Source: Cylindrobasidium torrendii FP15055 ss-10 (taxonomy: Eukaryota; Basidiomycota; Agaricomycetes; Agaricales; Physalacriaceae). From it: 64,000 bases of DNA. The notes beneath the pieces were generated by a model. It searched no databases. It saw nothing but the letters and a program-made list of their open reading frames with translations, and was not told the origin of the DNA. Positions 2,186 to 55,063 of the stretch are shown here, piece by piece. Position 1 is the first letter of the stretch. The number at the start of each line of letters is the position of its first letter. The DNA lies in NCBI GenBank assembly GCA_000934385.1, contig KN880457.1:1-64000 (forward strand). Reading direction: 5' to 3'. The position numbers were made by a program, and so were the translations under genes.

Positions 2186-3313
2186 ATGTCTGACCCATTG
2201 AGCGCGATGAGCATGCAAGGCAGTCGAGAAAGGCGCGCATGGACTATTGCAGAGGACGAAGCACTGAGGCAAGCCGTTGAGTTGGGTGAGTTGGATAGTC
2301 GAACATTGTTAGGAGCACCAATCCGCCAAAGTACCCGCGGTTCCCCCTACTCGGCGCACGCCTCGTCCATCTTGTCTTTCTGCTGTCATCGTCACCGCTA
2401 ACGCTTCCGCCAGAGGACGGCGATAATCCTGCACCGTCAAAATGGTTCGCCATCTCCAAACATGTTCCCGGACGCACAAACAAGGACTGCCGAAAACGCT
2501 GGTTCGCGAAAATGGCGAGCGACGTGACCAAGGGTGGCTGGGCGCCAGATGAGGACGACCGACTACGCTCTGCCATCGACCAGTACGGCCCTCGGTGCGT
2601 CTGCTACTTGTCTTGCTGTCGCTCAACGCTGATGCCGCCCAGCTGGTCAATGATTGCGTCGTGTGTGGGCACAAGGAACAGCGATCGTGCGTGCTGTCCA
2701 TCCCGTCCCTGTCATAACTAACGTCGCTTCAGAATGCGCCAAACGTTGGACTGATACGCTAAATCCAGCCATCGACCGCACAAGCTGGACCCCCGAAGCC
2801 GTACGCCACGTCGCCTAGCCTGCCACTTCCGCTGACACCTTCCAGGACGCAGCGCTTATCAAGGCTGTCGAGGACCACGGGAAAGTATGGACGAAGATTG
2901 TGAAGCAATACTTTCCTGGGCGTACAGGTCTCTCTGCAAAGAACAGGTATGTTGCCGATCCCCCCATCTATCTCCGCCCCGAGGACGATCTGCGATTTGA
3001 GCTCTCTGACCTTGCCCCGGATAGATACAACAGCATCACCCGCGTAAACGGTGAAGCATCGCGCAGCATCCGCGGCGTATCCAGCCCTCGCGCCAGCCAC
3101 CATGTCAAGGTCGAGCGCCTCGAGCCTCCGCCAGCGCCACCGACCTCCTCATACAGAGTCCAGCCGCAAATGCAGCCTGTGCCCCCTCTCCTCTCATACG
3201 CACCGCCAGAGCATGGTCGCACGATGGAGGCTTATCCGGGCAGCGCCATGTACACTCTCCGGCATATCCCCGCCCTCTCTGTACCCCACCAGGTCCAATC
3301 TCACTCTCCATGA
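2186..3313 (+). CDS. Three-repeat Myb-like DNA-binding protein
   Basis: Seen: six exons 2186-2285, 2414-2594, 2643-2686, 2733-2800, 2846-2946 and 3025-3313, all in phase, 260 aa. Exon 3 is only 44 nt but supplies the helix WSMIASCVGTRNSDQ of repeat 2. Three Myb/SANT-type repeats follow each other: RAWTIAEDEAL...GRTNKDCRKRW, GGWAPDEDDRL...RNSDQCAKRW and TSWTPEADAAL...GLSAKNRYNS. The C-terminal ~90 aa are proline-rich and probably disordered. Family knowledge: tandem Myb repeats bind DNA in the nucleus. The target genes cannot be read from the sequence. The start has an ACACC context before ATG. The first intron is unusually long for this window (128 nt). c-Myb-like R1R2R3 organisation is the best description; Bas1-like is possible. 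Confidence 0.8.
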
Positions 3314-3775
3314 TAGTCGAGACCTTGGTTGTATATTAATGCTGGCTTCTCACCATGAACAGTTTAGTTTTCTCTGTGTGTTTTCCTATGTCCGTCTACT
3401 TTGTAGGCTCCAAGAATTAAATTGAGTTGTTGTACAGTACCGAGGGTGAAGCTATCCAAACTTGTTGCGACTTGATATGTAAAGGGGCTAACCGGCGCAG
3501 GCAAGACAAGATCGACAACTGAAAACGGAGGCTTGGGAACGTGATCTGTAAGGCCAAATTTTCCTGTTAGCTCCTCGGAGCCTCCTCCAGATTCGAGGGC
3601 ATACAGTGCCTGTAAAAGTCGGCAAGCTGCTCCGGATGCTTCTGTGCCATTACTGTGGATTCTAAGTGGCTTCAATTTACCTTCCTTGTCGAGGATCAGT
3701 ATGTATGTCTCAGAATCCTCGATCCAGACACGCTTTCCTTTTGACCACCACCATCTCTTGTCTCCCAGTCCCATC
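3314..3775. other. Intergenic, 5' region of the XPA-like gene
   Basis: The 462 bases between the Myb stop and the next start contain a long minus-strand open frame (3792-3364) with no recognisable family that overlaps the first exon of the next gene. I treat it as a chance frame. A cluster of CA/CT-rich sequence before 3776 fits a 5' leader. Confidence 0.35.
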
Positions 3776-53111: not shown

Positions 53112-55063
53112 ATGTCCAAGCAACTCCTCGACACACCGTCCAAACACAGCTCTTCTCTAGCCAGCTTAGTGGACACCACCTGGAATTGGGCATCCGAACT
53201 TGCCTTTCGCGCTGGATGGACGCCGCTCACTAGCCTTGCCGAGTCCGCTGTGGTCAGCCTGATGCGCAACACGACCAAAGGCAGTTTCCGCGTTCTAACG
53301 ACGCGCACCATCTACAACTTTCCGTCCGGTGGCCCAGCAGATCCCAATGCGCGCACCGCAGAGCTACGCGTCGTCAACGACGCGTTTTGGATTAGACTCT
53401 GCATGATGGGTGACCTTGGCTTTGCGGAGGCCTATATGTACGGCGACGTCGAGTGTGATGATTTAGTCTCCCTCTTCAATGTGCGTATGCCAATGATAGT
53501 TGCCAAGGCGCGCGTCTAATGGCCAATAGATATTCCTGGACAACCGCGAGAACCTCACCAAGCTCGAATCCAAGGTGTCCTATCTTTACACACTGCCTCA
53601 GAAGATCACATCCTACCGCTTCCTCAACACCATTGGCAACTCCCGGTCCAATATTTCGGCTCATTATGATATTTCAAATGATATGTTTGCTGGTACATCC
53701 ACTTGCCATGCCAGTCTAGGAATAATACTCACTGTGAATTAGCATTCTTGTCCAAGGATATGACTTACTCTTGCGCCATCTTCGAAGACCTTGACGGCGA
53801 CCTCGAGCGCGAAAAGGACAGGGTCAAATACAACGGCGGACGCCGCCTTATCCGCCTCAACTCTGACGTTCCGTGCCCTGGTAATCCCGATGGCGACGAA
53901 GCTTTCCAAAGTGCAGAGGAAGAAGAAGAACTATACGAGGGTCAGATGCGCAAACTACACCATATCATGCAAAAGGCGCGCATCCTGCCTGGCCACCGTA
54001 TACTCGAAATCGGATCCGGCTGGGGTTCCATGGCTATGCTCATCGCAAAGACCGTTCCCGATACGACCATAGACACCCTGACGCTCTCCGTCGAGCAGCA
54101 AGTTCTCGCACAACAAAGGATCAAGGCAGCCGGCATGCAGGATAGGATAACGGTGCATCTCATGGACTACCGCAACATGCCAACAGAGTGGAAAGGCGCC
54201 TTCGACAGGCTCATTAGCATCGAGATGATTGAGGCCGTGGGCCAGGAGTTTATACCGACATACTGGAAACAAGTGGACTGGGCACTCAAAAGCCAGAATG
54301 CCATCGGCGTCGTTCAAGTCATCACAATTCCAGAAGCACGTGCGTGCCACTCGCTACTTGCCGTGTTGCATCGTCTCAATTGTTCCTAGGGTTTGAGCGA
54401 TACATTGAGGAGATTGATTTCATTCAGAAATGGGTGCGTAAGGACTACAAGGCAACGCAGGGCGCGCACTGACATTCATCGTAGAGTATGGTCAACCTCT
54501 GATGTTCGCACTCTCGTTCTGACAAACACATCAGTTTTCCCTGGTGGATTCCTCCCGACCCTCACTTTCCTCATCGAGACGCTGCAAGCCGGGACGAAGG
54601 GTAAACTTACTGTGGACTCCGTCAGTAACATCGGACCACACTATGCACGCACGCTGCGCGAGTGGCGGAGACGATTCCTCCGCGTCTTTGACGCAAAGAT
54701 CGTACCAGCGTTGCAGAGGCAATACCCGGATGTGATGTCGGGACCGAATGGAAAGAGAGAAATCGAAGTGTTCAAGAGGAAGTGGTTATGTGCGTCTTTC
54801 GAAGTGTTCTTTCCGCACCAGTCATTAACCAATTTATGACAGATTATTAGTACGCGTTCTGCATGCTCGGAGCAGGAAGATTCGATTCTGACTCACCATT
54901 TTCCATAGCTGCTATTGTGAAGTCGGATTCTCGACGAGAACCCTTGGTGGTAAGTCACCTAACATTCCAGTGTACGGGTTCTTGCTGACTCGCGCATGCA
55001 GACCACATCATCACATTTGCTCGTGAAGGAGCTACGGAATATGGATGCGAAGTATACCATTGA
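53112..55063 (+). CDS. Cyclopropane-fatty-acyl-phospholipid synthase with 1-nt and 7-nt exons
   Basis: Nine exons: 53112-53480, 53530-53692, 53743-54339, 54390-54433, 54485 (1 nt), 54535-54789, 54843-54849 (7 nt), 54909-54949 and 55002-55063; 512 aa. Seen: ISAHYDISNDMFAAFLSKDM, TYSCAIFED (catalytic-site Cys region), the SAM loop RILEIGSGWGSMAMLIA, TLTLSVEQQ, ISIEMIEAVGQEF, then FIQKW-I-FPGGFLP and RKWLYYYCYCEVGFSTRTLG. Family knowledge: CFAS enzymes use S-adenosylmethionine to add a methylene across double bonds of membrane lipid acyl chains. Family order is complete, so the enzyme is probably functional provided the tiny exons are spliced in. Alternative: one 97-nt intron (donor 54438) in place of the 1-nt exon gives KWVLFPGG. 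Confidence 0.9.
54485..54485 (+). other. Candidate single-nucleotide exon
   Basis: An A lies between ...CACTGACATTCATCGTAG and GTATGGTC. It would be flanked by introns of 51 and 49 nt, both with a CTGAC branch site 11-19 nt before their AG. Including it makes TGG-ATT-TTC, giving KWIFPGG, the family consensus. Confidence 0.65.
54843..54849 (+). other. 7-nt microexon
   Basis: ATTATTA between a GACAG acceptor and a GTACGC donor. Its flanking introns are 53 and 59 nt. With it the frame reads W-L-Y-Y-Y-C-Y-C-E; without it an in-frame stop or frameshift results. Confidence 0.85.

Follow-up and report, generated by a model that had tools for sequence, protein, structure and literature searches.

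A predicted single-nucleotide coding exon in a CFS1-like gene of Cylindrobasidium torrendii, with signs of the same structure across the Agaricomycetes

Introduction

How are 101 bases removed from a coding sequence when excising them as one intron destroys the reading frame? The question is raised by a CFS1-like gene in the first 64,000 nucleotides of contig KN880457.1 (assembly GCA_000934385.1) of Cylindrobasidium torrendii FP15055 ss-10, the stretch of DNA analysed here and called the window below. In this gene, bases 54434-54534 begin with the donor GTGCGT and end with the acceptor CATCAG, between the residues K-W and the motif F-P-G-G. We asked which introns can join the two flanking exons, whether the introns proposed are of the kind that this genome uses, and how the same junction is written in the gene models of homologues.

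The CFS1-like gene and its public model

The spliced gene encodes a predicted enzyme of the CFAS/CMAS family. Its product scores 191.4 bits against the Pfam CMAS profile (PF02353; cut-off 27) when translated with the one-base exon, and its FPGG region aligns to the bacterial CFAS structures 6bqc, 5z9o, and 7qos. The family is named after cfs1, which is described as restoring a Coprinopsis cinerea mutant defective in fruiting-body initiation (PMC8805025); the C. cinerea cfs1 protein is absent among the matches listed in our three protein searches. The features discussed below are as follows.

53112..55063, + strand: CFS1-like cyclopropane-fatty-acyl-phospholipid synthase gene (CMAS family), spliced, 9 exons, 512 amino acids, stop included
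54390..54433, + strand: exon upstream of the junction, 44 nt, ending FIQKW (TGG); the next intron is in phase 0
54434..54484, + strand: predicted intron 4, 51 nt, GTGCGT...CTGAC (54469-54473)...CGTAG; length and donor typical of the genome
54485..54485, + strand: putative one-base exon, an A that opens the Ile codon A/TT in KW-I-FPGG; the sole motif-keeping GT-AG solution, also favoured by family comparison
54486..54534, + strand: predicted intron 5, 49 nt, GTATGG...CTGAC (54519-54523)...CATCAG; modal length, donor GTATGG not enriched
54535..54789, + strand: exon downstream of the junction, 255 nt, starting TT-TTC-CCT-GGT-GGA (FPGG); the preceding intron is in phase 1
54438..54534, + strand: alternative intron, 97 nt, GTAAGG...CATCAG, giving KWVLFPGG; used in the public model P0001
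54843..54849, + strand: predicted second micro-exon, 7 nt, ATTATTA, completing WLYYYCYCE; absent from the public model (WLCACYCE)

The best protein match is P0001, the public CFS1-like model from C. torrendii FP15055 (identity 99%, query coverage 90%). It departs from the spliced gene at two places. At the junction it reads K-W-V-L-F-P-G-G, the outcome of the 97-nt intron; further on, it has WLCACYCE in place of WLYYYCYCE because the 7-nt exon is skipped. Four bases of a GTGCGT donor are kept at both places (GTGC/GT), saving the frame, and the residues VL can be traced at the DNA level to this GTGC/GT. The double donor shift of P0001 is a DNA-level key to like errors in the models of its relatives. 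P0001 also begins at the Met of MRNTTKG, so that the first 50 residues (53112-53261) are missing; the in-frame residues upstream of this start resemble the N-termini of homologues from Mycena and other fungi.

Anatomy of the junction

The preliminary description of this DNA had proposed that the 101 bases are split into introns of 51 and 49 nt that leave the single base A54485, and its anatomy holds base for base. Taken out whole, the 101 bases cost the frame. Taken out as two introns, they leave one base between AG and GT, with a complete GT-AG intron on either side; each half has its own CTGAC, whose branch A (54472, 54522) lies 12 nt before the last base of the intron, and its own AG. Retaining A54485 gives TGG-ATT-TTC, that is W-I-F-P-G-G, which matches the family motif in length and in its Ile; both the frame and the conserved motif require this base. 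The competing 97-nt intron from the GTAAGG donor at 54438 was likewise confirmed on splicing to give W-V-L-F in frame.

We enumerated every way of joining TGG (ending at 54433) to TTTTC (starting at 54535) with no more than two introns, none shorter than 35 nt, in frame and free of stops. Five GT-AG solutions exist, and only 54434-54484 / A54485 / 54486-54534 yields K-W-I-F-P-G-G at the family length. Admitting GC donors adds 15 solutions, none of which keeps the motif length. The interval was then compared with 20,000 shuffles of its middle, in which the first 6 and last 20 of the 101 bases were held fixed: an AG-N-GT split with fitting halves arose in 5.8%, and one whose first half also carried CTRAC and YAG in 0.26%. 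If the 97-nt intron were the one removed, the series CTGAC...TAG/A/GT inside it would be there by chance.

The protein family also speaks for the length of the shorter product. The three bacterial structures have K-Y-I-F-P aligned here with no gap at the junction, and the 97-nt intron, which makes the enzyme one residue longer, lowers the Pfam CMAS score by 7 bits, to 184.4. In the paralogue L009 the corresponding region, DFMRKYMWPNS, has the same length as that around KW-I-FPGG. L009 (about 2239-3411 of contig C7) runs in one frame through 2782-3411, with no intron there, and has the Tyr of bacterial CFAS where the CFS1-like gene has Trp. The paralogues say nothing on intron position, because the two whose matches cross the junction (L009 and L010) are intronless there and the other three matches within this genome stop short of it.

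We also considered whether the two introns form a stwintron. We discarded this, since the frame is lost once the 101 bases are excised together; both introns are complete, each with its own donor, CTGAC, and AG.

Intron lengths and donors in the C. torrendii genome

The other introns predicted in the CFS1-like gene measure 49, 50, 50, 53, 59, and 52 nt, so that the full series of eight reads 49, 50, 50, 51, 49, 53, 59, and 52 nt. For the genome at large we used a sample of 264 kb, the window plus 200 kb. Ab initio intron finding by codon scores gave mostly noise, and we instead counted the lengths from donors GT[AG][ACT]GT through CTRAC...YAG, considering all acceptors and taking as control the mean of ten first-order Markov sequences. 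The sample holds 837 strong donors (651 in the control). Lengths of 45-54 nt are strongly in excess (62 versus 5.4), whereas those of 90-104 nt show no excess (9 versus 9.8) and the broader class of 70-159 nt stands at 41 versus 55.6. A simpler count, which used a single control and stopped at the first acceptor to fit each donor, had the same outcome (61 versus 3 and 33 versus 62); counting first acceptors only could underestimate long introns, hence the use of all acceptors and ten controls.

Because the 90-104 nt class shows no excess, the 97-nt intron would be atypical of this genome. Its donor, GTAAGG, is also unenriched among introns of 44-66 nt (1 versus 3), while GTGCGT, the donor of predicted intron 4, is the commonest in that class (28 versus 2 in the control). 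GTATGT is enriched as well (19 versus 2). The donor of predicted intron 5, GTATGG, is not (2 versus 3), which counts against the one-base exon.

The junction in homologous gene models

Three protein searches, with the best 120 matches of each, gave 158 distinct homologues including P0001, some species being repeated: 147 annotated proteins and 11 ORFs known only from contigs (10 tagged lgn, 1 jgi). When the best 120 of the first search were aligned, 66 carried an insertion after the junction Trp; no other position among residues 325-458 reached three insertions, and positions 76, 203, and 230, which have as many as the junction or more, lie in stretches of variable length.

The two groups of homologues differ at this point. 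All 11 contig-only ORFs among the matches listed read KW-I-FPGG; they are probably cDNA, because of their uninterrupted length and their source tags. They are scattered over a quick tree of 121 rows that included 10 of them. The 147 annotated homologues listed comprise 14 with I, 31 with V, 56 reading W-(V/A)-(I/L/V/F)-F, and 46 irregular models, the last being 29 with other insertions and 17 without a recognisable KW...FPGG. In total, 102 of the 147 have extra residues or are disrupted at the junction or close to it. Irregular models cluster at this point, and many of them can be decoded as the lack of one base. Ganoderma offers an example: the contig ORF P0135 reads KWIFPGG, while the three Ganoderma models nearest to it (two sharing 89% identity with it, the third 87%) fail in three different ways (KWLNFAVFPGG, KWLIFPGG, and one without KW).

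The 56 two-residue readings are of the same kind as that of P0001, and might be counted in favour of the 97-nt intron, which is moreover canonical and in frame. Their composition points the other way. Among 59 two-residue insertions, 56 begin with V or A, that is with GT or GC, and so betray a donor (the others are QV, SL, and LI); W-(V/A)-(I/L/V/F)-F is what would be expected if four bases of a donor (GTNN or GCNN) stayed in after TGG and the phase-1 acceptor AG/TT-TTC was used. The reading is found in none of the 11 contig-only ORFs. We consider removal of the 97-nt intron, with W-V-L-F-P-G-G as its product, very improbable. The one-base exon, the candidate of the preliminary description, is to be preferred on the uniqueness of the solution, the Pfam gain, the typical first donor, the modal lengths, and the homologues. 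On this evidence A54485 is very probably a coding exon of one nucleotide, flanked by two small introns of the usual kind, 51 and 49 nt long.

Seven models with W-A-I-F were seen in Mycena, Favolaschia, and Agaricus (P0013, P0023, P0034, P0039, P0045, P0053, and P0082). Their reading suggests a first intron that starts with GC (GCNA/GT), that is, a GC-AG intron beside the one-base exon.

Of the 46 irregular models, 41 retain FPG[GS]. In 17 the residue before FPGG is V, itself preceded in 16 by A, P, T, L, or V, as is predicted for retention of [CT]AG/TT at a phase-1 acceptor; the exception has Q (P0058). A one-base G exon in Lentinula was considered from this QV and rejected, as CAA-G/TT of a retained intron end explains it equally. 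Ten models end in I, with Q before it in 4 and K in 1, fitting [CA]AG/A plus TT; the remaining 5, with F, L, P, S, or V, do not fit. Of the 11 that end in L, four read E-A-L-F from a skipped upstream exon and a phase-1 acceptor, and three models end in F. In Desarmillaria P0015 the first intron of such a structure seems to be retained, and in Armillaria P0026 the second, each of 54 nt. For the insertions in P0123, P0136, P0148, P0155, and P0157, among others, decoding was attempted and none was found.

The 31 models with V at the exact length could be taken for another base in the exon or for a plain single intron. In C. torrendii this would mean one non-canonical intron of 100 nt, ending in CA or starting with TG, that leaves a G and gives W-V-F-P-G-G. 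All 31 are full length in the region of the 7-nt exon, versus 28 of the 56 donor-shift models, which suggests that they were built on transcripts (the 7-nt exon, too, looks common to the homologues and often missed). We infer that the exact-V models follow transcripts and that the A, having no place in a model, may have been written onto the adjacent intron G. The simplest reading would be a cDNA base A forced onto the G beside the intron. For a one-base exon of Fusarium, a gene model is described that disagrees with its transcript record, the latter being correct (PMC12940212). The contig-only ORFs speak against the 100-nt intron, with I in 11 and V in none, versus 14 I and 31 V among the annotated proteins (Fisher p = 3e-5, which is only indicative because related sequences are counted as independent). 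A non-canonical 100-nt intron in C. torrendii, needing a splice site of a kind that the one-base exon does without, is in our view scarcely credible.

Scarcely more can be said for a missing base, whether through faulty assembly or sequencing or in a frame-shifted pseudogene, together with a single 101-nt intron: a one-base indel would equally explain the lost frame, but every other exon is intact and in frame over 512 amino acids, irregular readings recur at the same junction in many independently annotated species, and a 101-nt intron would itself be atypical of the genome, so that we give this explanation next to no weight.

Probable conservation and age of the exon

The donor-shift signature occurs in nine orders: Agaricales, Boletales, Atheliales, Amylocorticiales, Corticiales, Hymenochaetales, Cantharellales, Russulales, and Polyporales. 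Because these readings span nine orders and all 11 contig-only ORFs read KWIFPGG, the single-A exon is probably old in the Agaricomycetes. A layout of a phase-0 donor after Trp, one base (usually A), and a phase-1 acceptor before TT-TTC is probably common to the orthologues in at least nine orders. We think it likely that the single-A exon dates back to an early Agaricomycete, or further, and that most lineages have retained it. Searches of viral_contigs and genome_contigs yielded no orthologous fungal DNA locus; a second scan of genome_contigs gave three loci from bacterial MAGs, one of them (L034) with one bacterial motif.

A possible route of splicing and origin

Splicing can join no exon smaller than one base, and such an exon is too short to be recognised across its length. 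Introns 4 and 5 would each be recognised by intron definition, through the donor, CTGAC branch site, and AG that each of them has. Only five bases hold acceptor 1 and donor 2 (AG/A/GT), which could hardly be occupied simultaneously, so that the two introns would most likely be removed stepwise. Our guess is that intron 4 goes first, because its donor is the commonest in the genome, leaving TGGA/GTATGG; removal of intron 5 would then join the A to TT and so form the Ile codon of K-W-I-F-P-G-G. As to origin, a second intron may have been gained beside a phase-1 intron, or a lost base may have been rescued by a cryptic AG-N-GT, as is proposed for Fusarium (PMC12940212).

If the single-A exon is as old and as widely retained as we think likely, no other one-base exon known from fungal protein genes would be as widespread, and most public models of the CFS1-like gene would be wrong at the junction, including many that look right with Val in place of Ile. 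For annotation, this bears on a family named after cfs1 in which the 102 annotated homologues listed as irregular at the junction outnumber the rest.

Comparison with known one-base exons

The preliminary description had mentioned a single reported plant case; this falls short of the record, as APC11 and VPS55 are both in print and fungal nuclear cases have been published too. One-base exons are already known from APC11, VPS55, CYP621A, and the snoRNA hosts of Candida, none of which is from a basidiomycete, and the literature searched, with subscription journals mostly outside its coverage, showed no nuclear one-base exon in a basidiomycete.

The single-nucleotide exon of APC11 is described from Arabidopsis (PMC4674806) and from most land plants (PMC8831610), and is merely cited as a one-base exon in several further papers (PMC9702816, PMC8208691, PMC8056616, PMC7392893). 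As here, one A lies between two GT-AG introns, is essential to the frame, and was surrounded by wrong annotation; unlike here, the gene is a plant gene, the A lies within a 422-nt interval, and it was proven by cDNA and reporter constructs. The C. torrendii case is from a fungus, has two introns of about 50 nt, and is predicted from DNA. The 1-nt exon of VPS55 (PMC8831610) resembles it in being missing from reference annotations and in being deeply conserved, as is probable here, and differs in belonging to land plants and in undergoing alternative splicing in some lineages.

One-base exons are also reported from mitochondria, between group II introns in Ophiostoma (PMC12308204) and in placozoan cox1 (PMC5436844). 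In the snoRNA host clusters of the Candida parapsilosis group (PMC5033589), fungal nuclear introns likewise lie one base apart, in a non-coding transcript in which no protein frame is at stake; nested and recursive splicing are discussed there for the single-base exons. Stwintrons (PMC5639578; see also PMC6616335) are similar in that adjoining introns of a fungal transcript are likely removed in sequence, and different in that one intron splits the other's splice signal, whereas here each intron is whole and a single base would remain between them.

A further parallel is CYP621A of Fusarium (PMC12940212), also a fungal nuclear protein gene, in which the base falls in the codon of a conserved motif and gene models are wrong. 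That exon is described from one ascomycete genus (20 orthologues, with 24 genes also stated), is a G (AG/G/GT), and is supported by reads. The exon described here is from a basidiomycete, is an A, has an apparent spread of at least nine orders, and is predicted from the DNA.
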